A stretch of 64,000 nucleotides of DNA from Xestospongia bergquistia (taxonomy: Eukaryota; Porifera; Demospongiae; Haplosclerida; Petrosiidae). How positions within the stretch are numbered: the first letter of the stretch is position 1; each line of letters begins with the position of its first letter. Of the stretch, positions 1 through 60,618 are shown in pieces. The position numbers and the translations under genes are program-made. The notes under the pieces are model-generated. The model made no database searches and was not told the DNA's origin. It saw only the letters and a list, made by a program, of their open reading frames with translations. The stretch spans positions 9,233,230 through 9,297,229 of the forward strand of contig OZ014414.1 of NCBI GenBank assembly GCA_963965975.1, read 5' to 3'.

Positions 1-1070
1 TGGTCAACTGTTCGAGTACAACAATACATATTTCTGCTCACTCACATAGTAAATGATGAGATGATATTAATAGACAACTCCATTAGTCCTATACGCTACA
101 ATGATATATTAATAATGTAGTTATCACTACAGAAAGGATTGGATACTATATTGAGAATATGAGACCTTTAACTGAATACAGTATACTCTGAATACAGAGG
201 AACTAAACCTTTATACAGTATAATGGACATGAGATCACTGGATGTAGAGGTGGAATATTATGAGATGTAAGTTGAAGACAATAATTATCATCTCTCCTCT
301 CTCTTATTAACTAGACTAGGTACAAAGGTCACCAGTTATACTAGATGTTATACAATCAACTGATCCTAATAATTATATTAAATATTATTGTTTTAAAATT
401 GTAGGCTTATATTAGTAGGCAACAGTAATAAATCATTATAATAGTAAGTTCTCTTATTATAATTCTCAACATTATATTGTCTTGTGTTAATAGATCATTT
501 TCCTCTTTTAATTGTCTTAATGAACAAAGTTTATTAAGTAATATTATTACATCATTTTAATGTATTCACAACACAAACAAGACAACAACAATAATATCAA
601 TATATATAATATAAGATATACTCGTGTTAAGAAGACATGTAATATTGTTGTAGATGAAGTTTTTGAATAGAGGACAAGAGATGGTTAAATTTAGTATTTA
701 TTGAGGTTTCTGTGATTGTTGATTCTTTTTACAGCTGCCATTAATTTTAATATTTCTATGCATCTCTGTCAACTAAAATTTAATGATATTTATATTAATA
801 TTTAAAATTAAATAAATATTAATAATATTTAGCAAATATTACATAATTATGACATCATATGTACACATGATAATATAACAGTATTACATAGTGTTCAATT
901 AAAGTTGACATTGTTGAAAAATCAAGTAACTTATAAACCTCATCAATTATTAATAATAATGAATTCAGTGACATTAATGAAAACAGTCTGTAATGAGAAA
1001 GAGAGAGTCAATATTTTCCATATATATATATACCTGTTGCTGACCTTAATATCATCATAATCACATATAT
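1..1070. repeat. 3' flank of an upstream (third) copy of the tandem unit
   Basis: This stretch aligns by eye with 9,150-10,075 and 21,890-22,800, the sequence that follows the LRR exon in copies A and B, with shared small indels and the same word order. The window therefore opens just downstream of a third death-fold/LRR gene whose coding part lies outside. Its minus strand carries the short open stretch also seen at 9,459-9,668 and 22,205-22,405, which I do not accept as a gene. No other coding signal is visible. Confidence 0.75.
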
Positions 1071-1089
1071 ACATTGATCTTATTATAAG

Positions 1090-1860
1090 TTCTACTGTAG
1101 TAATATGTGTGGTACTGGAGGACTTGATCGTTTACGAGTTTTTACTTTAATAGGTAGAGTAGAACTATAACTTGTATCATTTTTAACTCCTTTCTTATGA
1201 TTATTAGTAGGTTGTTTTTGTATGACCTCTGTAGATTCCTCTATCTGCTATGGAGAGAGAGAGAGAACTATGATAACATGATAAGGTGTTTAATACATTA
1301 ATTAATTGTTGTAATATTATTGTGTAGTAGTAATTATAGACTAATGTATGAATGGATAGATGGATGAATTAAATGGATCAATAGTATATGAATGTAATGT
1401 TGATAACATCTGTCCATTAGTTGACTATCTATCAATCCATTACAGACTATTGTATGATAACTAACGAACAGATGAATGTATGGATGACTTAATATGACCA
1501 TTTAAAAATGGATGTCTTCTTGATAAAGTGATGATGATGATTGGTTAATATAAAGTTAATATATTTTTAGGTCTAAGGTTCAAGGATTTAGATACATACA
1601 ATAATTAAATAAATTAGAGTACAATAAAAATTGATATAAGTACACAATAAGTTATAATTGTTACATGTACATGTATTGTCATGGATATAGTTTTATATGT
1701 AATATTTACATAAATAAGAGTACAATAAAACTTGAAGCAATTTTAATAACATAATTAATGATACAAGTAACAATATCTTATCTGTTATTAAATATGCTCT
1801 CTGTTTACAATTCTCAGGACAGTCAGATTGTCTCTGAAGTCTATAAGCAATAGTTGATAC
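1090..1860 (-). pseudogene. 3' remnant of the FN3 receptor-like gene (copy 0)
   Basis: This matches 10,430-12,010 but lacks the 552-bp element inserted there. On the minus strand, just inside a splice acceptor near 1,240, a short open tail ends at a stop near 1,095 and contains SSPPVPHI, like the tail at 10,395-10,577. Upstream exons of the receptor are missing. The sequence near 1,806-1,850 matches 11,971-12,010. It is a truncated duplicate left at the boundary between tandem copies. Whether it is expressed cannot be seen. Confidence 0.5.
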
Positions 1861-1947: not shown

Positions 1948-4900
1948 ATGGCTACAAGAAACCTATCTTTCGAGGAGATTCTAGAAGAGAAACCAACACT
2001 TGATGAATTATGTGAACATATTCGTATTGGTAGTAAATGGTATCAGTTGGGAATTCAGTTGAAACTGAACGCTAAGAAGTTAGAAGATATTCACAAGCTA
2101 CCAGATGACTCCACATACAAAACAACAAAAATGTTTGAGTTGTGTTTAGATACCAAACCTGATGCTACCAGAAGACAAGTGGTAGATGCTTTGAGGAAGG
2201 AATTAATGACTGTTGCTGCCCATGAGTATGAGCAGACATTGTGGAAATCCAGTAATCTTCCTACCAGTAAGTACAAGACCTTTTATATGTACATCATGTT
2301 ATAAATGTTATATTATTAGTTTATTAATGGTTATGTGTATTGTTCTTATTATAGGAATGGATATCCCAGGTACTGAAGCAAGTGCTATTCTTCAATCCCA
2401 TACACACATACTGCCTCAAACTCAAGAACCAGGTAACATACAGGACTTGATATAACATTCACTATCAGTTGTTTTAATGTATTACTTCATTTAGATATTT
2501 CAGATCTTTTGAGGAAGGCTCCTACTGAACATGAACTACATTATCTATTAGCTGATATTAGTAATATGTGGTATGAGATTGGATTATCATTGAAAGTCTC
2601 TTGTAGTATTTTAAATGGTTTAACAAACAGTGAAAAGAGCAATACTTACAAACTAGCTCAAGTTATTTATAGCTGGTTAACTACTACTGAGTCACATCTT
2701 GTTACCTGGGAAACAGTGATTGATGCTATTAAGAGTCCTATTGTTAATAATATCAAGAAGGTCAATGAAATACATCAACATTTAACTAAAGGTAAGTTAA
2801 TATAACATTTATTGATGCAGTCAGTGAATATGTGTTTGTTCCTTAGCGAAAGAAGATACTCTCCAAAGTATTATTGAAGAGATATCACAGTCTCAGATCA
2901 ATCCTGTAAAAGTGTCCCAGCTCTTATTTAGTGAGAGCTGCATCAGTGAAGAAACACTTGATAGAATTGAGACGTTGCAGGGCACTCCAGATGAGAAGAA
3001 GACAACTCTGTTATCTGCTATACATATAGCAATATCTTCAGATCATAAGAAGTTGAAAATGTTAGCAACAGTACTGTCCAAGTTTGAAGAGACGAAAACA
3101 CTATCTGAGAGAATTATCAGTGAATATGGTAAGAGGTCAATTAAATAATTTATAATTAATACATATTGTTAATAGGTCAAACATTTCCAGATGACCAGAC
3201 AACAGTAGCTAATGTTCAAGAGGTAGTAATGACAAGTTATAGTAGTCATGAAGATCATGCCAGTGACATTTTACGTTGTCATTATGGTACTCTCTCTCAG
3301 TCTCTTCGATATCCTGTTAGAGTAGCACACTACCTCTATGGAGAGGGAGTTATTACAAAAACTAGACTAGCAATTATAAAATATACTGCAAAGTCTTTGT
3401 CAACAAATAAAGCATTATTGATGTTATTAGGAGCTGTACGTCATGCTGTACATACCAACTATCATCATCTGATGATCTTTGTTAGTGTATTGTTAAAATT
3501 TACTAGCACTGTACCATGTGCTAATGTTATCTTAAAAAATTGTGGTAAATACATCATTATGTACTCATTATATTAAATTTTATTATTAATTTTTGATAGA
3601 GAAAGTATTTCCTGATGTCATCATTCCTGAAGTACAGACCAGAGTTAAACACCCATTGACCACTAAATCAGTAGATAGCACTAAAGCTTTAAGACAAGGT
3701 TAGTATATACTGTGTGTGATATATTGAAGGATTATTTCTTGATCTTATTGTAGATGATGTAGTAAAGGAAGTTATACTTCCTCAAAGTTTGAGTCCTATT
3801 TTTGGATCAATTAAAAGTGAATTTGCAATAGCTTTTAGAAATATCAGAAAAGCTATCAACACCACACCTCCACCTCTTGATGAATTGAAAAGATTTCTTG
3901 AAGATGGCTATCCTCACCTTGAATCTCAAATTGTTCATTGTGAATCCATTGATGAAGTACTAACTGTTGTGAGGAACCATTGTACACTGATCAATATCAG
4001 TTGTCTGGAGGGTATTGTAAAGTGCTTTGAAATTAAAGAAGCTGAGACACATATACAAAGATACAAAGATATAGTTCAGTCATTTTGTGAAAAAACAAAG
4101 GCTTCTCTCTGTCTGGACAAAAGTTTTAAAATAACAAACACTCCTTCTCTTCTCAAATGTGAGACAGTTGTCTTTGTGTTAAACTGGGATCCTAAAGATT
4201 GTACTTTGAAAGATATCGAGGACATTCTTTCCATATCACTTGAGATCAATGTGGAAATTCGTTACATACAAAGAGGGAACTCCATCATTGTCACCTGTTT
4301 TTTTCCACTCAATCTAACAACTCTACTTATTACCAGAGCTCAGGAGACTCTTGAAATAATGAAAGAGAAAGGATTACTTCAACTTACAGTTGGTCACTGC
4401 ACCATTTATGATCATAGAAGAGACAAGGTAAGAGATGAGTAGTATTAGACAACAGTTACTACATGTGTTGTTTATTGATATATAGGAGATTAGAACTATT
4501 GTAGAAGAGAATACAAAGGAGTTGAGAAGTCGTCTGGAACTAGAACAAACCATGCGGAAAAAGATGACTATACAAATGTCATCTATTGTCAGACAAAATG
4601 AAGGTATATTGTGTACAACTATTGTTTTATTTAATAACTGTCTATTATATGATATATCTGATTAATAACTTAATGTTCCTTTATATAGAAACAAGAGAAA
4701 TGAAAGAAAAGACAATTGAAGATTTAACATCACTTGTGAAAACAAAGGAAGGTAAATTAATACAACATCAATGACAAGTCCAATGTTGTCAGTATTTTAC
4801 ATAATATATTAGTGATCAATTTTCTTCTCATTTTATATAAAGCTATTGAGAAGAATATACTGTCAGTGTCTACTGAGAGACAGAAAGAGCTAGAGACACT

Positions 4901-7900
4901 ACAAGAAATAATAACGTCATTGACTTTACAAGTAAGAGAGAGAGACCAACAGATTGAGGAGTTAAAACAGAGCTTGAAAGGTAACTGGTATTAGTGACTT
5001 CTCATTATATGACATTGTTACTAGATCTAGCATTCATACCAAAGGTTCGTAAACCAGTAACTGATCAAGGAGTTGAGGAAACACAAACAAAATCCAGTCA
5101 AGAAGAGTCCACACATGAAACTACAGGTAATAATATAATATTGTTAATAATATATATGTCTTAATGGTAACTACTAGAGTCTACACTAATATTAGAGTTA
5201 AAAGATCAGTTAAAAGGTTCAGCTAATAATAAAGATGAAACCACTCCTCCAAGTAAGTTTATATGATAATATTCTATCTCTTACAATCAATAATGTTAAT
5301 AATTATTAAATTTATAAACCACAAATTATTATATTGTAAATTATATTCATAATTCTCAAACCACAATAATTAAATTCATAATATATAAAAAATGAATTTC
5401 CATATTTACTATACACTCCCTTAGTGTCAGTATAATATGATAGAGTTATGATTATGATAAGATCTATAAAATGTTTATATTAAGTGTTATCATATTACAC
5501 TATATACATGTACATGTTTAATATAAGTATCTTATATAGAGTCTCCAGTATTACATGATATATTAAAGGACTATGATGATAATAAAGAGACAAAGGATGA
5601 AGAGTCAGACAAAAGAGGTAAGACTCAGTATAGTACTCAACCACACCCACCAAAAATTTTTGTGATAACAGGACATTCCTATGTACAACATTAGTATCAT
5701 ATATTGTTACTGACAAATATTAATACACTTGACTGTGTCTTAGTTGACTCCACCTATAATTGACATAATTAATAATGATGTCATTATAACTATTGATAGT
5801 ACATCTTTGTATGTATATAAGCAGGAGTGAATGAGTGTCATGAAGGAGCGTCCAACTCCCATTAACCAACTGTTGTCGAATCAAGGCTTAGAACATATGT
5901 CCATATATGGACATAACTGCTAAGTGTTTTGCAGTTTAATAGCTTGTGGGTTGTAACTTAGGTGTGCTTTAAATAGAAAAAAATTTAAGAGAAGTCAAGA
6001 AGATGGCCAAACGACCTTGTAATAGATGCAAAAAACCTGGCAGAGTTTTCTTTAAGAACTTCAGTAACTTCCCTAGGCTGAGGTTAGTCTTGTGTAGTGC
6101 TAGAGAACTCATCTTGTTAAATAAAGAGAGAAATTTTGTTCAATTGTTTCCATCTCTTTAATGACAAAAGTCTCCATAACCTCCACGTCCAATTCTTTTA
6201 AGCATTTCATAACTTCTTTCTTAGTTTCTTTACTTAGTAACACAGTATTTAATAACCGATTTATATTAAAGTAGACGTCAACATCATGAATATTCTAAAA
6301 AGTCTATATGTAGCAAGTCCAGCCTTCATTTTACTTGTGGTTGCTAATTGTAATAATATTCATTGCTCCATCACATACTAAACAGTACTTATGGTACTTA
6401 AGTTTATTTTCCTTATATGGAATAATTCCTGACTGTGTTTTGACAATGCAAATATAATGCGAGTTGGAATCTCCTTCGTGACGCTCATGTGGTCCTGATA
6501 TAAGAGAGATGTGTTAACTATAATTTGATATCTCTTAGGAATGACTAATATAACAAACTTGTTTGTGTATTTCTTAAATATATCTCTTGTTCTAGTAATA
6601 GGTAGTTATAATTATGTTATAATCTGTAGTGAGTTGTTGATTAGTTTTAATCTTATGATTTTCATATACAAACTTTATAATTATAATAACTACATCATCA
6701 GTAATGATAGTATTTAGTCTCAGAATTATCATGATTTTCTATTAATGATTTCTTTTCTCACAAACTTCATGTGTCATGTGACCATCAGCTACTTGTCATG
6801 TGACCATTAATATATGATTGAGTGGAGTTGACATGTCACACTGATAACACTAGGACCAAGAATTTTGTAGCAAATACAACAGACTGCCTTTTGCTTTGCA
6901 GTCTGGGAATGAGATTGTCAAACTCCGGACTTTTTGATCAAAGCATTTTTCAGTTACACTCTACTATAAAAACAATGTGGTTTGTCAGTTCAATAAGCTA
7001 TAATCTCACCATGAATTATAGGATGTACAATGTATTATTATAACTACAATAATTCATAATCAAGATTATTTACCATATCAAGAAAAGCATCAAAATAAAC
7101 TGATAAATAATCTTACCTGTGGTTCCTTCTACTTTTGTTTATATCTATTAACATGTACTGCTCGGTATAGTTACTGTACTTAACCACACCCACCAAACAT
7201 TTTTATGACGACAGAGCATTCCTATGTACAATGTAGAGAGATAAATAATTTCCTCATGTAACAAATATATCAACTCAATTCTGTACTCAATGAAATAGAA
7301 TGTAATAATGTTTACAATACATATTATAAAGACATTGTAGTCTTGTGTCACCTTATATTACAGTAACATTAGACCACACAAGACAAGACAATTTAGACTG
7401 TTCATTTCAGTCTCTATTCTTTACCTATTGACAACTATTATCAAATAAACTTTACACATTTCACTTAATATTGACAACAAAAGTATATATGTTAAGAAAC
7501 AACAAACAGGAAATGTCTAAAGAATAATTCATTTTCAGATCTTGTATTAGATCAAAACAGTTTATTGTCACACTAAACTATAAAAATGTGTTTTGTCAGG
7601 AAATGATTGATAAGCTACAATACCTCTCAAAGCAAAGGGGTTGATCTCACCAGACTAAGTTGATGTATGAATACCAGAAATCCATTATATAATAATGTTC
7701 TGTTAGTATGAAAGAATTGTTCCTTTGTAACCAATAGAACATACTAGACAGCGAATTTAACAGTAAACCACACCTCCTGTGATTCGTTGCCATAGTAACC
7801 ATATTCAGTAAACAGTAATGGCTTCCTTTCTTCTTCAGTGTATTGTCTGTGTATTGTAGTGTGTTATAGTATATTACTATGTGTGTACTATACTATATAC

Positions 7901-8714
7901 TAACTCTGTTTTTTTAACAGGAGACACTGGAAGTGTTCAGTGGTATGATGATATCAATAGTGTATGGCTCTTTAGTCCAAGTATACTACAAAGTGAAGAT
8001 GTTATAAGTAAATTAATAAAAGAACAACAAACAGGAAAAGAATGGAGTATTACTCTCTCCTCGTCATCTCCTGAAAGTGCTGCAGTTATTATAAACAATC
8101 TTAATAAGTGTACAGTGAGGAGACTTTATATAAACAACACTTCATTGGACAGTAAGTGTGTATCGATATTATCAGAGATACTAAAAACTAATAAAACAAT
8201 AAAGAAACTAGAGCTGTACTCCTCTTTACTTACTGGTGGTATCAAACAAGTCAGTGATAGTCTCTTTAATAATAAAACACTTGAACAGTTAGTGTTGTCT
8301 AATGTTACTGGTATCACAGATGAAGATATAACTCACTTATCTACTATGTTATCAAGTAATACAACTTTAAAAGAACTACATCTCTACAACTGTAACATCA
8401 CTGATAATGGAGTCCGATATATCTGTGAAGGACTTACTAAAAACCAAACATTGACTACGTTGCACATCGGACGTAATCCTCAGATCACTTCAGTTAGTAC
8501 CAGTACAATAGCAGATCTAATACAAACAACTACATCATTGACAAGACTATCTCTCTACTATACTTCACTGAACAATGATGATATCAAGACAATATGTACA
8601 TCACTTAATAAAAATACTACAATAAGGAAACTATACTTATCAAGACAACATAAAGAGTATTGTAAGATGTTAGACAGTTATCAAGTTATTAAACACAGAC
8701 TTGTGTTCGTGTAA
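1948..8714 (+). CDS. Death-fold/LRR receptor-like protein, copy A (14 exons, 1161 aa)
   Basis: Exons by splice signals and frame: 1948-2266, 2355-2432, 2495-2791, 2847-3128, 3176-3544, 3600-3698, 3754-4427, 4486-4603, 4689-4751, 4843-4980, 5025-5126, 5178-5252, 5540-5617, 7921-8714. They total 3,486 nt with no internal stop. Order: death domain (residues ~6-105), linker, second death domain (~133-231; WYEIGLSLKV core), two related CARD-like helical repeats (~232-325 and 326-448), an unnamed domain (~490-700), coiled coil (~706-812), acidic linker (~813-897) and LRRs of ribonuclease-inhibitor type (~960-1145). I see no NACHT, transmembrane segment or signal peptide, so it is probably a cytosolic sensor/adaptor. 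Twelve of 13 introns are phase 1. The start is the first ATG, conserved in copy B. The 2.3-kb last intron is the least certain join, although its phase fits and the LRR exon has no usable ATG of its own. Confidence 0.8.
5826..6092 (+). other. Inverted partial copy of the unknown exon and a short Cys motif exon-like block
   Basis: At 5,826-5,860 the plus strand resembles the beginning of the minus-strand block at 6,494, with the same ~30-nt core and conservative codon changes, so the two lie as a fold-back pair. At 6,003 an ATG opens a short block containing CNRCKK and ending at a donor-like site near 6,083. In copy B the same block is frameshifted by two bases. Function unknown; probably decayed. 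Confidence 0.3.
6109..6494 (-). pseudogene. Minus-strand exon pair of an unknown gene inside intron 13 of copy A
   Basis: Two exon-like blocks lie antisense in the long intron. Block 1 (6494 to 6335) has an acceptor-like edge and is open for 53 codons, with HYICIVKTQ and YCLVCDG. Block 2 (6294 to 6109) follows an acceptor, is open for 61 codons and ends in TGA; it contains KKEVMKCLKELD and a charged helix. The donor phase of block 1 does not fit block 2 exactly. The same blocks occur in copy B, where block 1 has a stop. The product is not recognised; it may be an exonised relic or a mobile-element fragment. Confidence 0.4.
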
Positions 8715-10206
8715 TAGTAAGTAGTTTGTTGTTTATTCTTAATTTGTCTTCTCGCTCACTTTTATTTTCTCTTTAAATTTCTTTTAACTTCATTTTCTCA
8801 TATTTTATTAGCAATTTATTTCTCTAACAAAAGTAGTAGACAATAAAAATAGAGCAGTTTTGCTTGACACTTACTTCTCTAACGTCGCACTTTTTTTGCT
8901 CTCTGACAGCTGCTTATTTGCCGCCCGTAATTATTATTTGTGGGTGGGGCATTAATTTTGACCCTTTGTAGTTCCAATATGTTCTGTCGAGTTCTAGCTC
9001 CTGAACAGAATATTTGAAGACGTCAGACAGTAAAGAACGTACTTGTATCCCATTTTTTAACCGAATAAAGAATTCAGCATGACGTATATTAAGAAAAGAT
9101 GGAAGACAACAATTTAACTATTATACTGAGATCAGTTCAGTTGAATAATGAAAATTGTCAACTGTTCAAGTCCAACAACAAATATTTCTGAAGTAGAGAC
9201 GTTTGCTCACTCACATAGTAACTGATGAGATGATATTATGTAAGTTGAAATAATTGAAGACAATAATTATTACCTCTCCTCTCTCTTATTAACTAGACTA
9301 AGTACAAAGGTCACCAGTTATACTAGATGTTATACAATCACACACATCAACTGATCCTAATAATTATATTAAATAGTATTGTTTTAAAACTGTAGATTAA
9401 ATGTTAGTAGACAGCAGTAATAAATCATTATAATAGTAAGTTCTCATATTATAATTCTCTACATTATATTGTCTTGTGTTAATAGATCATTTTCCACTTT
9501 TAATTGTCTTAATGAGCAAAGTTTATAATGTAATATTATTACTTCCATTTTAATGTTTTCACAACACAAACAAGACAACAACAATAATATCAATATATAT
9601 AGTATAAGATATACTGCTAGGTAGACATGGTAATATTGTTGTGGGTGGAGTTTTTGAATAGAAGACAAGAGATAGTGTGTGTCTAATAAACTCTTTATTT
9701 ATGGAGATTTCTATGATTGTTGATTATTTCTACAGCTGCCAATAATTTTAGTATATCTATGTACCTCTGTTAACTAAATTACTTTTATATTAATTTTTAA
9801 GTTAAATAACTATTAATTTTCAGCAAAACATTACATAATTATGACATCATATGTACACATGATAATATAACAGTATTACATAGTGTTCAATTGAAGTTGA
9901 CATTGTTGATAAATCAAGTAACTTATAAACCTCATCCATTATTAATAATAATGAATTCAGTGCCATTAATGAAAACAGTCTGTAATGAGAAAAAAATAGA
10001 GTGTCAATATTTTCCATATATCCCTAATCTTGCTGACCTTAATATCATCATAATCACACATACAGATTGATCCTAATATAAGGTAACTTATCAAAATACT
10101 ACTGTTTAAATGAAAATGTAGTTATGTAATCTATAGGGTAGATGAGTCTGGAGAAGATACGTATATAGCAGGAAGAAAAATTTCAAATTATTTTTTATAC
10201 ATAATA
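8715..10206. other. 3' flank of copy A, no gene seen
   Basis: This AT-rich sequence is shared with 21,461-22,932 and, for its second part, with 1-1,070. A minus-strand open stretch at 9,459-9,668 contains a charged segment and has counterparts in the other two flanks, but it has neither splice support nor a consistent length. I see no RNA gene. Confidence 0.6.
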
Positions 10207-14777: not shown

Positions 14778-17700
14778 ATGGCTACAAGAAACCTATCTTT
14801 TGAAGAGATTCTAGAAGAGAAACCAACACTTGATGAATTATGTGAACATATTCGTATTGGTAGTAAATGGTATCAGTTGGGAATTCAGCTGAAACTGAAC
14901 GCTAAGAAGTTAGAAGATATTCACAAGCTACCAGATGACTCCAAATACAAAACAACAAATATGTTTGAGTTGTGGTTAGATACCAAACCTGATGCTACCA
15001 GAAGACAAGTGATAGATACTTTGAGGAAGGAATTAATGACTGTTGCCGCTCATGAGTATGAGCAAATATTGTGGAAATCCTGTAGTCTTCCTACTAGTAA
15101 GTACAAGAACCTTTTACACGTACATCAAGTTATAAATATTATATTATTAGTTTATTAATGGCTATGTGTCATTTTTATTATAGGAATGGATATCCCAGGT
15201 ACTAAAGCAAGTGCTATTTTTCAATCCCATACACACATACTGCCTCATACCAAACAACCAGGTAACATACAAGACCTGATATAATTGTTGTTCCTTTTAA
15301 CATCTTACTACATTTAGATATTTCTGATCTTTTGAGGAAGACTCCCACTAAACATGATCTACTCAAACTATTAGCTGATATTAGTCACTTGTGGCATGTG
15401 ATCGGTTTATCACTCAATGTTACTGACAATGTTTTGTTTGGTTTAAAACATAGTCAAGAGAGTGATACCATCAAACTCTCTGAAGTCATTCATAGCTGGT
15501 TAACCACTACTGAGTCTTCCTGGGAAACATTGATTGATGCCATCAAGGGTCCTATTGTTAAACATATCAGGAAGGCTAATGAAATACATCAATACTTAAC
15601 TACAGGTAAGTTAATATAACATTTATTGATGCAGTCAGTGAATATGTGTTTGTTCCTTAGTGAAGGAAAATACTCTCCAAAGTTTTATTAGAGAAATATC
15701 ACAGTCTCAAATCAATCCTGTAAAAGTGTCCCAGCTCTTATTTAGTGAGAGATCTATCAATGAAGAAACACTTGATAAGATGGAGTCATTACAAGGCTCT
15801 CCAGATGAGAAGAAGATGACTTTGTTATCTGCTATATATACAGCAATATCTGTAGATCATAAGAAGTTGAAAGTGTTAGCAACAGTACTGTCCAAGTTTG
15901 AAGAGACGAAAACACTATCTGAGAGAATTATCAGTGAATATAGTAAGAGGTCAATTAAATAATTTATAATTAATACATATTGTTATTAGGTCAAACATTT
16001 CCAGATGACCAGATAACTGTAGCTAATGTTCAAGAGGTAGTAATGACAAGTTATAGTAGTCATGAAGATCATGCCAGTGACATTTTACGTTGTCATTATG
16101 GCACTCTCTCTCAGTCTCTTCAATATCCTGTTAGGGTAGCAGAGATAATTTGTGGAGAGAGAGTTATTTCACAAGCAGCATTTTCTATGGTAAAACGTAT
16201 TGCAGAATCTTATTCTGAAGCAGAAGCATTGTTTGTCCTGTTAAGAGCTATACGTCATGCTATACATAGTAACTATAGTAACCTAGGAGTCTTTGCTAGT
16301 GTACTGTTAAAACTTACTAGCAATGTACCATGTGCTAATGCTATCTTAAAGGATTATGGTGAGTATACAAAGTCATTCCTTGATTGTTAAATATGTTTGA
16401 TGTAGAGAAAACATTTTTTGAAGACAAAAGTTATGAAGTCCAACATGTTAATACTGGAGTTAGTGAAGGTATAATTTCTATAGTACATTGAAATTATAAT
16501 ATCATTGTATCAATTAGTTAATTCATTGACCTCTACATCAGGAGGAGCTTCAGTTGATAGCAGTTTAACTTTAAGTCAAGGTTAGTAGTGAGACTGTGAT
16601 TATAATAATAAAGTTTTTTAATTGTAGATGAGACTAAAAAGGAAGTTGTAATTCCAGTCTCACGAAAGTTTAAGTCAGTACTTGCAGAAATGAGAAAGGA
16701 ATATGCAATAACATTCAGTAATATTCGAGAAGCTATCAACACAACACCTCCACCTCTGGATAAATTGAAACAGTTTCTTAGAGATGGTTACTCTTATCTC
16801 AAATCTCAAATAGCTCATTCTACTTCCATTGATGATGTCCTAGATGTTGTTAATAATCATTGTACACTGATTAATATCAGTTGTTTGGAGGGTATCGTAA
16901 CACGATTCAAAATCAAAGAAGCTGAGACACATATACAAGCATACAAAGATGTTGTTCAGTCATTTTGTGAAAAAACGAAAGCTTCTCTTTGTCTAAATGA
17001 AAATTTTAAAGTGACAAACACTCCTTCTCTTCTTAAATGTGAGACAGCTGTCTTTGTGTTAGACTGGGATCCTAAAGATTGTACATTGGAAGAAATCAAT
17101 GACATTATTTCAGAGTCAGTTGAAGGAAATGTACAGATTCGTGTCATTAGAAAGGGGAACTCCATCATTGTCACCTGCTTTTTTCCACTCAATCTAACAA
17201 CTCTACTTATTGCCAGAGCTCAGGAAACTCTTGAATCGGTGAAAAGGAGAGGATTAATTCAACTTACAGTTGGTCATTGTACCATTTATGATAAATATCA
17301 AAGAGACAAGGTAAGAGATGAGTAATATTAGACAACAGTTACTACATGTGTTGTTTATTGATATATAGGAGGTTAGAACTATTGTAGAAGAGAACACAAA
17401 GGAGTTGAGAAGTCATCTGGAACTTGAACAAACCATCCGGAAAAAGATGACTATGCAAATGTCATCTATTATCAGACAAAATGAAGGTATATTGTGTACA
17501 ACTATTGTTTTATTTAATAACTGTCTATTATATGATATATCTGATTAATAACTTAATGTTCCTTTATATAGAAACAAGAGAAATGAAAGAAAAGACAATT
17601 AAAGATTTAACATCACTTGTGAAAACAAAGGAAGGTAAATTAATACAACATCAATGACAAGTCCAATGTTGTCAGTACTTTACATAATATATTAGTGATC

Positions 17701-20700
17701 AATTTTCTTCTCATTTTATATAAAGCTATTGAGAAGAATATACTGTCAGTGTCTGCTGAGAGACAGAAAGAGCTAGAGACACTACAAGATATAATAACGT
17801 CATTGACTTTACAAGTAAGAGAGAGAGACCAACAGATTGAGGAGTTAAAACAGAGCTTGAAAGGTAACTGGTATTAGTGACTTCTCATTATATGACATTG
17901 TTATTAGATCTAGCATTTATACCAAAGGTTCGTAAACCAGTAACTGACCAAGGAGTTGAGGAAACACAAACAAAATCCAGTCAAGAAGAGTCCACACATG
18001 AAACTACAGGTAATAATATAATATTGTTAATAATATATATGTCTTAATGGTAACTACTAGAGTCTCCACTAATATTAGAGTTAAAAGATCAGTTAAAAGG
18101 TTCAGCTGATAATAAAGATGAAACCACTCCTCCAAGTAAGTTTATATGATAATATTCTAATAATGTTAATAATTATTAAATTTATAAACCACAAATTATT
18201 ATATTGTAAATTATATTCATAATTCTCAAACCACAATATCATATTACACTATATACATGTACATGTTTAATATAAGTATCTTATATAGAGTCTCCAGTAT
18301 TACATGATATATTAAAGGACTATGATGATAATAAAGAGACAAAGGATGAAGAGTCAGACAAAAGAGGTAAGACTCAGTATAGTACTCAACCACACCCACC
18401 AAACATTTTTGTGATAACAGGACATTCCTATGTACAAGATTAGTATCATATATTGTTACTGACAAATATTAATACACTTGACTGTGTCTTAGTTGACTCC
18501 ACCTATAATGGACATAATTAATAATGATGTCATTATAACTATTCTTGTTATGATAGTACAACTTTGTATGTATATAAGCAGGAGTGAATGAGTGTCATGA
18601 AGGAGCGTCCAACTCCCATTAACCAACTGTTGTCAAATCAAGGCTTAGAACATATGTCCATATATGGACATAACTGTTAAGTGTTTTGCAGTTTAATAGC
18701 TTGTGGATTGTAACCTAGGTGTGCTTTAAATAGATAAAAATTTAAGAGAAGTCAAGAAGATGGCCAAGCGGCCTTGTAATAGATGCAAAAAAGCTGGCAG
18801 AAAGTTTTCTTTAAGAACTTCAGTAACTTCCCTAGGCTGAGGTTAGTCTTTGTGTAGTGCCAGAGAACTCATCTTGTTAAATAAAGAGATAAATTTTGTT
18901 CAATTGTTTCCATCTCTTTAATGACAAAAGTCTCCATAACCTCCATGTCCAATTCTTTTAAGCATTTCATAACTTCTTTCTTAGTTTCTTTATTTAGTAA
19001 TACAGTATTTAATAACTGATTTATATTAAAGTAGGCATCAACATCATGAATATTCTAAAAAGTCCAGCCTTCATTTTACTTGTGGTTGCTAATTATAATA
19101 ATATTCATTGCTCCATCACATACTAAACAGTACTTATGCTACTTAAGTGTATTTTCCTTATATGAAATAATCCCTGACTGTGTTTTGACAATGCAAATAT
19201 AATGCGAGTTGGAACCTCCTTTGTGACGCTCATGTGCTCCTGATATAAGAGAGATGTGTTAACTATAATTTGATATCTCTTAGGAATGACTAATATAACA
19301 AACTTGTTTGTGTATTTCTTAAATATATCTCTTGTTCTAGTAATAGGTAGTTATAATTATGTTATAATCTGTAGTGAGTTGTTGATTAGTTTTAATCTTA
19401 TGATTTTCATATACAAACTTTACAATTGTGACAACTACATCATCAGTAATGATAGTATTTAGTCTCAGAATTATCATGATTTTCTATTAATGACTTCTTT
19501 TCTCACAAACTTCATGTGTCATGTGACCATCAGCTACTTGTCATGTGACCATTAATATATGATTGAGTAGAGTTGACATGTCACACTGATAACACTAGGA
19601 CCAAGAATTTTGTAGCAAATACAACAGACTGCCTTTTGCTTTGCAGTCTGGGAATGAGATTGTCAAACTCCAGACTTTTTGATCAAAGCATTTTTCAGTT
19701 ACACTCTACTATAAAAACAATGTGGTTTGTCAGTTCAATAAGCTATGATCTCACCATGAATTATAGGATGTACAATGTATTATTATAACTACAATAATTC
19801 ATAATCAAGATTATTTACCATATCAAGAAAAGCATCAAAATAAACTGATAAATAATCTTACCTGTGGTTCCTTCTACTTTTGTTTATATCTATTAGCATG
19901 TACTGCTCGGTATAGTTACTGTACTTAACCACACCCACTAAACATTTTTATGACGACATAGCATTCCTATGTACAACGTAGAGAGATACATAATTTCCTC
20001 ATGTAACAAACATATCAACTCAATTCTGTACTCAATGAAATAGAATGTAATAATGTTTACAATACATATTATAAAGACATTGTAGTCTTGTGTCACCTTA
20101 TATTACAGTAACATTAGACCACACAAGACAAGACAATTTAGACTGTTTATTTCAGTCTCTATTCTTTACCTATTGACAACTATTATCAAATAAACTTTAC
20201 ACATTTCACTTAATATTAACAACAAAAGTATATATGTTAAGAAACAACAAACAGGAAATGTCTAAAGAATAATTCATTTTCAGATCTTGTATTAGATAAA
20301 AACAGTTTATTGTCACACTAAACTATAAAAATGTGTTTTGTCAGGAAAAGATTGATAAGCTACAATTCCTCCCAAAGCAAAGGGGTTGATCTCACCAGAC
20401 TAAGTTGATGTATGAATACCAGAAATCCATTATATAGTAATGCTCTGTTAGTATGAAAGAATTGTTCCTCTGTAACCAATTGAACATACTAGACAGCGAA
20501 TTTAACAGTAAACCACGCCTCCTGCAATTCGTTGCCATAGTAACAGTAGTCAGTAAACAGTAATGGCTTCCTTTCTTCTTCAGTGTATTGTCTGTGTATT
20601 GTAGTGTGTTATAGTATATATTACTATGTGTGTACTATACTATATACTAACTCTGTTTTATAACAGGAGACACTGGAAGTGTTCAGTGGTATGATGATGA

Positions 20701-21460
20701 CAATTATGTTATACTCACTAGTCCAAGTGTATTACAAAGTGAAGATGTTATAAGTAAATTAATAAAAGAACAACAAACAGGAAAAGAATGGAGTATTAGT
20801 CTCTTCTCATCATCTCCTGAAAGTACTGCAGTTATTATAAACAATCTTAATAAGTGTACAGTGTGGAGACTTTATATAGAGCACACTTCATTGGACAGTA
20901 AGTGTGTATCGATATTATCAGAGATACTAAAAACTAATATAACAATAAAGATACTATGGCTGTACTCCTCTTCACTTACTGGTGGTATCAAACAAGTCAG
21001 TGATAGTCTCTTTAATAATAAAATACTTGAAGAGTTAGTGTTGTCTGATGTTACTGGTATCACAGATGAAGATATAACTCACTTATCTACTATGTTATCA
21101 AGTAATACAACTTTAAAAGTACTATCTCTCTACAACTGTAACATCACTGATAATGGAGTCCGATATATCTGTGAAGGACTTACTAAAAACCAAACATTGA
21201 CTACGTTGAACATCGGAGGTAATCGTCAGATCACTTCAGTTAGTACCAGTACAATAGCAGATCTAATACAAACAACTACATCATTGACAAAACTAGATCT
21301 CGACAATACTTCACTAAACAATGATGATATCAAGACAATATGTACATCACTTAATAAAAATACTACAATAAGGGAACTATACTTATCAAGACAACATAAA
21401 GAGTATTGTATGAAGTTAGACAGTTATCAAGTTATTAAAGACAGACTTGTGTTCGTGTAA
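14778..21460 (+). CDS. Death-fold/LRR receptor-like protein, copy B (15 exons, 1162 aa)
   Basis: Exons: 14778-15096, 15184-15261, 15318-15605, 15661-15942, 15990-16358, 16406-16468, 16542-16580, 16628-17310, 17369-17486, 17572-17634, 17726-17863, 17908-18009, 18061-18135, 18289-18366, 20667-21460. They total 3,489 nt without a frame break. The domain order is that of copy A: two death domains, two CARD-like repeats, the unnamed domain, coiled coil, acidic linker and LRRs. Differences: the second death domain is three residues shorter, exon 6 of A is replaced by two small exons with a diverged linker, and the intron before the SPVLHD exon is 134 nt shorter. The coiled-coil exons are nearly identical to A, whereas the LRR exon has about 31 replacements. 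Both copies appear intact and under constraint. The cytosolic sensor role is inferred from domains only. Confidence 0.8.
18869..19239 (-). pseudogene. Minus-strand exon pair of an unknown gene inside the last intron of copy B
   Basis: Counterpart of 6,109-6,494. Block 2 (19,054 to 18,869) is open for its full 61 codons and ends at the same TGA; its changes from copy A are silent or conservative. Block 1 (19,239 to 19,080) has an in-frame TAG at 19,139-19,141, so at least this block is broken. No family recognised. Confidence 0.4.
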
Positions 21461-50079: not shown

Positions 50080-51638
<1,559 letters not shown>

Positions 51639-51849: not shown

Positions 51850-53181
51850 TTCTCATAGACCCAGTGCATTTATCGTGTGTAACAAATTTATTACAGCCTC
51901 ACATTTAGCTTCAGACTCAGTATAACCTGTACCATGTCCTACAAGAGGTCGTTCTTTGATATCATATTGACATTGCTTAGCAACAACGGAGTCAAGGTTT
52001 AGATGATTTGTGTATGCTAAACAAAGATATTTAGATGTTGATGGATCTTTTTTGTCAGCTGGTTCAGATTTCTCTATAAGATATTCTGGGAGATTACAAT
52101 CTTTAGATAATACAAGAGCTACTAATTCATCTAGGGTAAGTGGGTCTTCTTCTACTGTGGTAGAGTCTGATTTAACAGGTCTAGGTGGATTACGTGGTAT
52201 GACTCCACCAGATGCCATACTATCAATAAGAAGAAGTTTTAATTTATTATACAATTTAGTAGCTGCATCAACTTCAGCTGCTCGCTTAGATTTTCCGTTA
52301 CCATATGTCTCTTCTAAACTATCACCATTCCCATCTCGTACTGTACATTTAATTGTAAAGTCTGGATTATGTGATTGACCTTTTACACCAATAGTTTTAT
52401 ATATAGGTATTTGAAATAAATTCTGCTGACAAAGTTCTTGCAATTGTCCTTTCACATTCGGAGCACCTGGGCTACTGGATCCAATAGGTACTCCTCTGGA
52501 AGTTTGAATTGGTCCTTGTTTGAGTGAGCTACTGTTATCTGTTTGATCTTCTGGTATTTCAAGAGCTGGAAATGGCATTCTAGGATCAGTTGTTTTTAAT
52601 AGATTTTCAAAATCTTCTATAAGTTTTCCAGCTACATCCATTTCTGCAGCTTTAACTGTCTTAGCAGTACTAGTTCGCTGAGCAATGACTGCAGTATCAT
52701 CCATCCGATAAATACGACCTCTAACAGTATGTTCTAATTGGTGGGAGGGGCCAGTTTGACTTACTATTTCGTATTTTGGTATGGGTAATCCTTTCCTTTG
52801 ACACATTTCTTGAAGTCTGTTTTTATTATTGTTCTGTGAAACAGGGGAAGTGCCACATAATGGTATAGTTGTATACATTGGCTCTAAAGAGAAAACAGAC
52901 CCAGACATAGGTACGTCTTCTGAAAGTTTACCCTTGTCTAACCCACTCCCCCTTGATACTGGAGAACCTTGTATTCTAGATAATAAGTCAGTAGCAGCAT
53001 TAGCTTTAGCTTCTTTCTTTGTCTTTCCCTCTCCATTTCCAGTGTATTCTCCCATTTTCATAGTACATATAAAAGTACGGTTATGAGAAGGACCAGTTTG
53101 TTCGTACTCATCAATAACTTTAAGTCCGTGTCTGGTAGCATACTCGTTTAAACGACCAACTGGATTATCAGAAGAAGCCAT
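51850..53181 (-). CDS. Intronless protein with four dsRNA-binding domains (442 aa)
   Basis: A single uninterrupted frame from ATG 53,181 to a TAG stop at 51,850-51,852. dsRBD1 is at residues ~6-73 (GPSHNRTFICTMKMGEYTGN, then KKEAKANAATDLL). dsRBD2 is at ~118-190 (QTGPSHQLEHTV, weaker C-terminal helix). dsRBD3 is at ~240-318 (GQSHNPDFTIKCTV, then SKRAAEVDAATKLY). A divergent fourth domain is at ~350-440 (ESEAKCEAVINLLH). No catalytic domain is present. Relatives are the PRKRA/TARBP2/Staufen class of dsRNA-binding adaptors, which act in RNA silencing or antiviral sensing in the cytoplasm. Lack of introns among intron-rich neighbours suggests retroposition or a naturally intronless gene. The exact orthologue is uncertain. 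Confidence 0.85.
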
Positions 53182-54240
53182 CTTTTAGGAAGACGGTTGC
53201 TACATGCCCAAAATGAACAGGAAGCAAGAAGCACAATGATTGCCCTCTGTGATTACCTACTTCCTGTTCTCAATGTCTATTAAAACTATATATAGTAACA
53301 TTAAATAACCAGTCATTATTTAAACAGTAATGATGTAATATATTATTAAATCATTATTGTATAGATAGTCATTGAGGATTGTACTGGGTAGATATGAATG
53401 ACTAGATACATACATGATTGATGTAATATTACAATAATTGTGTTAGTTGAATGAAAATTAATTGAAATGTTAATTCTAATTAGTTGAAATATTGTTATTT
53501 GGAAGTTGGTATTTGAAAGTTGAATCAGACTGAAATATCTTTTTGTCAATTTAAAAAATACTCCTTCTAGATAATAAATAAATATCAGTCACATAACAGG
53601 CAGCCATTGTGATTAGAGGTTTCTTGAAAGGAATCCTCCCAATTAGTCAGCAAGAGCATACCGAGTCACCATCAGCCAAGGAGAGTGAATTCAGGAGTAA
53701 AGATAAAGGAGAATAATATAGATCTGTCTATACTGCTATACTGCTATAATACCAGAAATCATGAGAACTAGACTTCTCCACATCTTTTGAGAATTGATTC
53801 ATGATAGAAGCAAGAGGAAACATTTTAAATAGGCTAGTACTTCTCAATAGCAAACTGAACATCAATTAAGTGACAGAAATCATGAACATCATTTTAAATG
53901 GTAGACTGGCACAACAATGGCAGGCAACAATTGTATAGTTTATATATAAACAGAACATTGAACAATAATAAGGAACAAAAGATAATGATGAGGGTTTTGA
54001 ACTTTTGATAAGGATTTTTATTTAAGCACCTAAAAAATTAAAATATGATAGAAATTATTATAATTAGTAGTGTTGTTCTGGATTGCTTAAGTTGGACTAG
54101 TTTCATTCCTCGCCTTTAAAATATATTTATTCATTCTTACTCCATAACTATCGTTAATGAGATTCATAGCGTTGATCGACGCGCCCCACAAGAGCATGAA
54201 GGAAAAATCTGACGTACATATAAAAAGAAACTAAAACAGT
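53182..54240. other. Intergenic, no gene seen
   Basis: AT-rich sequence upstream of the dsRBD gene. It contains its promoter region and short open stretches with no splice or similarity support. I recognise no RNA gene. Confidence 0.6.

Positions 54241-55933: not shown

Positions 55934-60618
<4,685 letters not shown>

Follow-up and report, generated by a model that had tools for sequence, protein, structure and literature searches.

A hypervariable LRR exon, probably drawn from a shared pool, in a family of Death-LRR genes with no detected NACHT domain

Gene organisation in the window

The window, meaning the whole stretch of 64,000 nucleotides that was analysed (C4:9233230-9297229), contains two genes in tandem, A and B, preceded by 3' flanking sequence from a third copy. 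The features referred to below are as follows.

255..1091, + strand, 3' flank of the third copy, with its leucine-rich repeat (LRR) exon located immediately upstream of the window, at C4:9232252-9233037
1948..8714, + strand, gene A, 14 exons with GT-AG joins and an open reading frame (ORF) of 1161 aa with no internal stop (predicted splicing)
1948..2266, + strand, exon 1 of gene A, Death domain (Pfam PF00531)
3754..4427, + strand, exon 7 of gene A, mid domain, no Pfam match
4486..5617, + strand, exons 8-13 of gene A, short exons, probable coiled-coil linker (judged by eye)
7786..7920, + strand, conserved 3' end of intron 13 that accompanies the LRR exon (left edge placed by eye)
7921..8714, + strand, exon 14 of gene A, encoding the entire LRR domain, with seven RI-type repeats and N-terminal cap strands
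8715..8905, + strand, partly conserved 3' flank common to the copies (edge placed by eye)
14778..21460, + strand, gene B, exons homologous to those of A (tentative boundaries for exon 6, predicted reading frame)
20667..21460, + strand, exon 14 of gene B, LRR domain

The product of gene A runs from the Death domain through several exons that have no domain assignment to the mid domain, the probable coiled coil and the LRR domain, and exons 8-13 are 94-100% identical between A and B. The Death domain scored 23.2 bits, against a cut-off of 22.6, on the ORF at 1891-2301 and 21.8 bits, below the cut-off, on the full 1161-aa protein. A Pfam search with the full protein (E<=0.05) returned LRR_6 above its cut-off, Death and LRR_4 below theirs, and a weak match to NELF-A_N. 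The mid domain of B gave a TSNAXIP1_N match below the cut-off, and the AlphaFold2 model of the mid domain was poor (pLDDT 53.6). An AlphaFold2 run on the LRR domain, made with A and B alone, gave a pLDDT of 85.3 with strands where expected, and both the sequence and the fold matches were led by ribonuclease inhibitors and the LRRs of NLRP and NOD2 proteins. The fold of the LRR exon is thus predicted to be that of an NLRP/ribonuclease-inhibitor LRR.

Gene A shares with the NLRs a C-terminal RI/NLRP-type LRR domain and an N-terminal death-fold domain, but the NACHT or NB-ARC domain that an NLR would also carry was not found in the 1161-aa protein (Pfam, E<=0.05). Likewise, none of the 95 NACHT matches listed for the genome (103 of 156 candidates scored) lay in the gene cluster to which A and B belong (C4:8.43-9.63 Mb). 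No leader sequence was seen by eye, the N-terminus of gene A being the Death domain, and the products of both genes are probably intracellular. The Death exon and the mid-domain exon each had at least 150 matches in the genome, with identity down to about 40% for the latter.

Elsewhere in the window, the - strand has an open frame at 51853-53184 in which Pfam places three dsrm (double-stranded RNA binding) motifs, and long simple-repeat tracts at 50560-50900 and 57970-58180 are open in several frames.

Comparison of genes A and B

The LRR exons of A and B start in phase 1, with the first full codon at 7923 and 20669, respectively, and were aligned without gaps over 263 codons and the stop. The original prediction, made from the sequence alone, had counted about 31 replaced and about 4 silent codons in this alignment and had placed the replacements on the variable x positions around the LRR strand motif. 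The count proved to be exact and the strings quoted as examples of strand replacements were correct. The placement was also borne out, as 16 of the 31 replacements fall at x positions in the seven LxxLxLxx strands, which number 35 (hypergeometric p=2.4e-8) and had 20 nonsynonymous changes and no synonymous change. These 35 sites had been set beforehand from the motif, and one of the five offsets that they comprise (offset 1) is mostly conserved. On the family scale described below, 25 of the 31 replacements lie on positively selected sites (55-copy set, A and B included). The scaffold, said to be identical even at silent sites, is nearly so; it carries the four silent changes (codons 14, 22, 47 and 216) and six replacements away from the selected sites (codons 53, 91, 102, 119, 248 and 258).

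For the whole exon, dN was 0.068 and dS 0.026. Intron 13 differs between A and B at 59 of 2287 positions (2.6%), a value similar to the dS of exon 14, whereas exon 14 overall differs at 44 of 794 positions (5.5%), and a chance origin of the pattern is therefore unlikely. The comparison took in all exons but exon 6, while introns 5 and 6 were misaligned and not comparable. In exons 1, 3, 4, 5 and 7, dN was lower than dS (dS 0.11-0.46). Two results run counter to a simple contrast between the LRR exon and the remainder of the gene: dN exceeded dS in exon 2 (0.092 and 0.061), and exons 9, 10 and 12 pooled had five replacements and no silent change.

Genes A and B are mosaic over the stretch from 2267 to 4485 (15097-17368 in B). 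Exons 3, 5 and 7 are about 20% diverged there, with dS of 0.26-0.46, and introns 3, 4 and 7 are identical at 98-100%.

The LRR exon family

The LRR exon had 148 matching stretches, with fragments and split matches counted, in the 146-Mb genome of 21 contigs. Of these, 92 were read, namely the best 90 full-length matches together with A and B, a set that leaves out the distant copies. A single 1.2-Mb cluster (C4:8.43-9.63 Mb) holds 59 of the 92. Stops or frame damage were present in seven of the exons read, leaving 85 intact copies, 57 of them in the cluster. Two pairs of cluster exons are identical and have a constant spacing of 73,989 bp. The 57 include 55 distinct copies.

A recent direct segmental duplication was seen in the cluster (C4:8775635-8800300 and 8849624-8877680, with copies L011/L012, L039/L040 and L149/L150). 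It spans at least 22 kb by matched exons, the extent being taken from the fetched parts, and its offset is 73,989 bp at first and about 77,380 bp farther on. It holds three pairs of LRR exons, of which two are identical and one has a 104-bp block difference. This duplication could be an unpurged haplotype.

Diversifying selection on the exposed LRR face

Among the 57 intact cluster copies, dN was greater than dS in 1495 of 1596 pairs. When sites were separated, again by pairwise comparison without a tree, dN was 0.378 and dS 0.094 at the x sites, and 0.029 and 0.040, respectively, at sites that belong neither to the x set nor to the N-terminal strands. The ten N-terminal strand sites were chosen after A and B had been viewed, and dN/dS there is post hoc.

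A site-wise likelihood analysis of the 55 distinct intact cluster copies, run on an MG94-type grid written for this work, with FastTree trees and kappa set to 2, found beta greater than alpha with a posterior probability above 0.95 at 46 of the 263 codons (2dlnL 373). The selected codons include 28 of the 35 x sites and none of the 21 buried strand positions. Repetition of the analysis on four segments with separate trees gave 47 selected sites, 44 of which are common to the whole-exon set. By strand offset, all seven positions were selected at offsets 2, 4 and 7, six of seven at offset 6 and one of seven at offset 1; none of seven was selected at the inward offsets 0, 3 and 5 or at offset 8. 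Outside the x set, selection was called at 18 sites, comprising 12 N-terminal sites (codons 6-46), codons 130 and 186 directly behind a strand, and the C-terminal codons 244, 249, 261 and 263. Mean entropy was 0.07-0.08 bits at offsets 0, 3 and 5, and 1.55-2.07 bits at offsets 2, 4, 6 and 7. Taken as a face of 46 residues, the selected sites are found in 55 distinct combinations in the 57 copies, with a mean difference of 28 of the 46 sites.

The proposal of diversifying selection on exposed LRR positions, first made from A and B, is therefore supported by the x-site excess of dN over dS and by the site likelihood. The ratio at the x positions exceeded 1 whether or not a tree was used, and no buried strand position was selected, exposure being taken from strand geometry on the predicted fold.

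Such variability is not intrinsic to this type of exon, given that it was not seen in a sister family on another contig (L004, L005, L006 and L008, C3:0.25-1.08 Mb). In these four copies, 0-6 of the 35 x sites varied against 6-45 of the 213 sites elsewhere (0-17% and 3-21%), and the x sites do not exceed the remainder in variability.

Unpurged haplotypes, assembly errors or pseudogene decay might also produce divergent copies, and the seven damaged exons of 92 and the two identical pairs at a constant 73,989-bp spacing are of the kind that such artefacts would leave. However, 85 of the 92 exons are intact, and the variation follows strand geometry, while errors would not spare silent sites and buried leucines. 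We give an origin of this sort hardly any credence.

A homogenised exon on divergent backbones

The LRR exon was compared with the mid domain in 39 cluster genes (741 pairs), using 40 fetched mid exons, which were the top matches among the best 150 scored of 482 candidates, together with those of A and B. LRR codons were divided into the hypervariable (HV) sites and 217 non-HV codons. Across classes of mid-domain identity, the mean mid-domain pS rose from 0.045 to 0.62, while the LRR non-HV pS stayed flat at 0.026-0.038 and the HV pN at 0.31-0.36. The mid domain is thus close to silent saturation while the LRR exon is homogenised across the same genes. A weak correlation with the backbone remains (mid pS against LRR non-HV pS, rho 0.19; against HV pN, rho 0.16).

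Individual pairs illustrate both sides of this pattern. Gene B and L041, 650 kb apart, have a mid-domain pS of 0.345, a non-HV LRR pS of 0.000 over the 217 codons and an HV pN of 0.21. L024 and L038 differ by 1% in the mid domain and at 40 codons of the LRR exon, 32 of them HV and 2 silent. For 25 pairs at 1-3% intron divergence, the mean HV pN was 0.30.

Long flanks were compared for 27 of the 57 cluster copies, or 28 with L016 added. At the intron end before the LRR exon, median divergence was 2% within 100 bp and 16-33% farther away (27 and 28 copies). In the 3' flank, it was 2% at 0-50 bp, 12% at 50-100 bp, 5% at 100-200 bp and at least 31% beyond, where divergences of 25% or more largely represent unalignable sequence and not point differences. 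The conserved block therefore takes in some 100-130 bp of the intron, the LRR exon itself and a portion of the 3' flank, and abuts diverged sequence on either side.

The conserved intron end includes GTTGCCATAGTAAC at 7786-7799, which was found exactly in 16 of 28 flanks and with at most two mismatches in 26 of 28. We take this sequence to resemble an X-box (RFX site), and it might be an internal promoter for the LRR exon.

Constraint on silent sites, from splicing or an overlapping function, could account for low silent divergence in the exon in place of exchange. It would be in keeping with a non-HV pS that is flat at about 0.03-0.04 at all backbone distances and with the conservation of the neighbouring intron end. 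Against this, 9 of 12 outlying copies tested have a non-HV pS of 0.12-0.22 relative to the cluster, and in the C3 family silent divergence over the whole exon is 0.05-0.15. The silent sites of the LRR are therefore able to diverge, and we regard constraint as a very improbable source of the pattern. Exchange of the LRR exon among genes, by comparison, seems to have occurred.

Linkage between hypervariable sites

Pairs of HV sites are near linkage equilibrium, with a mean z of 0.4-1.0 and a fraction of 0.02-0.08 above 3. Pairs of mid-domain residues in the same 38 genes, for which 60 variable sites and 700 pairs were sampled, gave a mean z of 5.9-7.2 and a fraction of 0.76-0.89 above 3. No association was found between HV and mid-domain sites (mean z 0.19). 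The nearest HV neighbours, less than 3 codons apart, are still somewhat associated (mean z 1.7, 55-copy set). The PHI test was significant for all sites (p=0.0005) and weak for the non-HV sites alone (p=0.046). Runs of at least 8 shared HV sites were found in 18 of 1485 pairs, against 11.3 after shuffling, and runs of at least 10 in 7, against 1.2. Long shared runs are thus slightly above free assortment, which indicates that the donors are mostly unsampled or that the tracts are very short.

Recent duplicates and a 104-bp block difference

Two copies derived from a recent duplication, L047 and L049, were compared over 6.7 kb. The 17 substitutions between them are confined to a 104-bp segment of the LRR exon; the remaining 6.6 kb has no substitution and a single 2-bp indel in an intron. 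The block corresponds to codons 66-100, where 10 codons differ; every one is a replacement, and 8 fall on selected sites. Neither version had an exact donor among the matches scored, 40 of about 150 candidates each (best identities 93% and 96%). The HV runs of the block at codons 66-72 and 95-100 had no exact partner among the 85 copies, while 24% and 33% of copies, respectively, generally have exact partners over these codons. Other copies carry 17 of the 20 codon states seen at the 10 codons where the two versions differ. The block probably arose by gene conversion.

Four further recent pairs, of which two lie outside the cluster, have no block difference, and HV codons make up 4 of the 26 that differ in them, where 4.5 would be expected at random. 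On these few pairs, set against L047/L049, the faces seem to change by blocks and not by point mutations that accrue at HV sites in steady excess. Three recent duplicate pairs (L060/L065, L062/L064 and L063/L067) have a nearly unchanged face, with scattered scaffold changes that are mostly replacements.

The HV codons include G- and C-based alternatives at the first and second positions, an observation made with a diversity-generating retroelement in mind, whose target would show adenine-templated changes alongside a template repeat and a reverse transcriptase. Many HV codons have fixed third bases. Targeted mutagenesis that spares third codon bases was therefore considered and was not supported, with 27 single-step replacements at third positions against 33 expected.

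These observations bear on two further explanations. In the first, recent birth and death, the copies are young duplicates whose HV sites diverged by point mutation under strong positive selection, with no exchange. An HV dN/dS far above 1 combined with low silent divergence is what this would give, third-position HV replacements close to expectation (27 and 33) are what ordinary mutation predicts, and few conversion tracts could be identified. It is unlikely, however, in view of the mid domains of the same genes, which reach a mean pS of 0.62, the HV sites, which are nearly unlinked, and the four recent pairs, where we estimate that a steadily accelerated rate would have made most differing codons HV instead of 4 of 26. 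A gradual build-up of point mutations under selection accounts poorly for the pattern.

In the second, a dedicated diversifier, somatic or germ-line, would rewrite blocks by templated or targeted mutagenesis instead of conversion between genes. The L047/L049 block, with 10 of 10 differing codons replaced and otherwise one 2-bp indel over 6.6 kb, would be a natural product of such a process, as would the lack of an exact donor within the candidates and copies searched and a free assortment of HV sites that is library-like. On the other hand, third-position HV replacements are not clearly depleted, and the occurrence in other copies of 17 of the 20 codon states is as would be expected of a converted tract. 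We consider a dedicated diversifier quite unlikely, and gene conversion between copies is the preferred source of the block.

Comparison with known systems

The lamprey VLRs are variable LRR receptors whose diversity arises by a conversion-like mechanism; their assembly takes place in somatic cells and their action is extracellular. The family in the window resembles them in having variable LRRs but differs in that its variation lies in assembled genomic genes and its protein is probably intracellular.

The closest known systems are the HNWD genes of the fungus Podospora anserina and the NLR-B30.2 genes of zebrafish. According to PMC1805685, the recognition repeats of HNWD (NACHT-WD40) genes undergo concerted evolution within and between genes, with positive selection at residues of the interaction surface and homogenisation of the remainder of the repeat. 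The family described here likewise has a recognition module that is homogenised across divergent backbones, with positive selection on its surface residues (surface assigned from strand geometry). HNWD genes, however, are fungal and have a NACHT domain and WD40 repeats that are shuffled as units (PMC1805685), whereas in the window family an animal-type LRR exon with a nearly fixed number of repeats is shared whole or as sub-exon blocks. The window family is therefore HNWD-like in its mode of action without belonging to that group, as the combination of NACHT and WD40 was not found (Pfam). In zebrafish, gene conversion across groups acts on the recognition exon of the NLR-B30.2 genes while the NACHT domains are group-specific, surface positions are under positive selection and the genes lie mostly on one chromosome arm (PMC4852459). 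A recognition exon that is selected and probably exchanged, and a clustered location, are likewise features of the window family. In the zebrafish genes, NACHT is present and the authors favour the B30.2 module over the LRRs (PMC4852459), while here it is the concave face of the LRR that varies and no NACHT was found. Concerted evolution combined with a selected recognition module is thus already known from these two reports (PMC1805685, PMC4852459).

Variable LRR faces are also known, from plant NLRs. In PMC8226289, high-entropy residues of the LxxLxLxx motif cluster on LRR surfaces, with agreement between entropy and positive selection for RPP13, and the same kind of residue on the LRR surface varies here. 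The plant comparison concerns NB-LRR alleles among ecotypes, whereas ours concerns paralogues in one genome with an RI-type LRR and a Death domain. Large NLR families that, like the present one, have Death and LRR domains have been described in the demosponge Dysidea avara (PMC12909245), but those genes carry NACHT and the word 'selection' is absent from the text. No description of a NACHT-less Death-LRR family of this kind was recognised in the open-access literature searched by listing.

Proposed explanation and significance

We explain the observed excess of replacements at exposed strand sites, the homogenised scaffold, the near-zero linkage between HV sites and the single 104-bp block difference by a pool of LRR exons common to a Death-LRR family without NACHT, which short-tract gene conversion reshuffles while selection favours diversity, an explanation to which we assign a probability of roughly 0.78. 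Counting against it are the lack of an exact donor for the 104-bp block and its HV runs within the candidates and copies searched, the small excess of long shared HV runs over free assortment, the weak PHI result at non-HV sites and the residual correlation with the backbone. A and B would belong to a large family of receptors, arranged in tandem and probably intracellular. Short-tract ectopic conversion between copies, and probably also between haplotypes, would homogenise the exon and its nearby flanks and would at the same time recombine the exposed residues of the beta-strands. Diversifying selection at about 46 sites in the concave sheet and the cap regions would maintain many residues per site, and the pool available for conversion is probably population-wide and larger than one genome. 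As a consequence of conversion and selection acting on such a pool, each gene would combine the signalling backbone of its own lineage with a near-random binding face. The variable face presumably binds ligands, with signalling through the Death domain, and a role in immunity or allorecognition is suggested.

A further reading, which we consider unlikely, is that the LRR exons form a heritable, library-like repertoire, perhaps a sponge one, in which an active mechanism renews the faces block by block, about 100 bp at a time. This mechanism would be either templated writing or conversion that occurs very often and draws on the pool of a whole population. If it were true, an old signalling backbone would be joined to a quickly renewed binding face in each gene.

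In this family, paralogues without a detected NACHT domain clearly show diversifying selection that is concentrated on the caps and concave face of their LRR domain. It comes with built-in controls, in the mid domain and intron of the same genes and in a sister family that has no hypervariable face. The near absence of linkage and the 104-bp difference between duplicates make the question of how receptor specificity is renewed in animals that lack V(D)J-type systems one that can be tested by sequencing alone.
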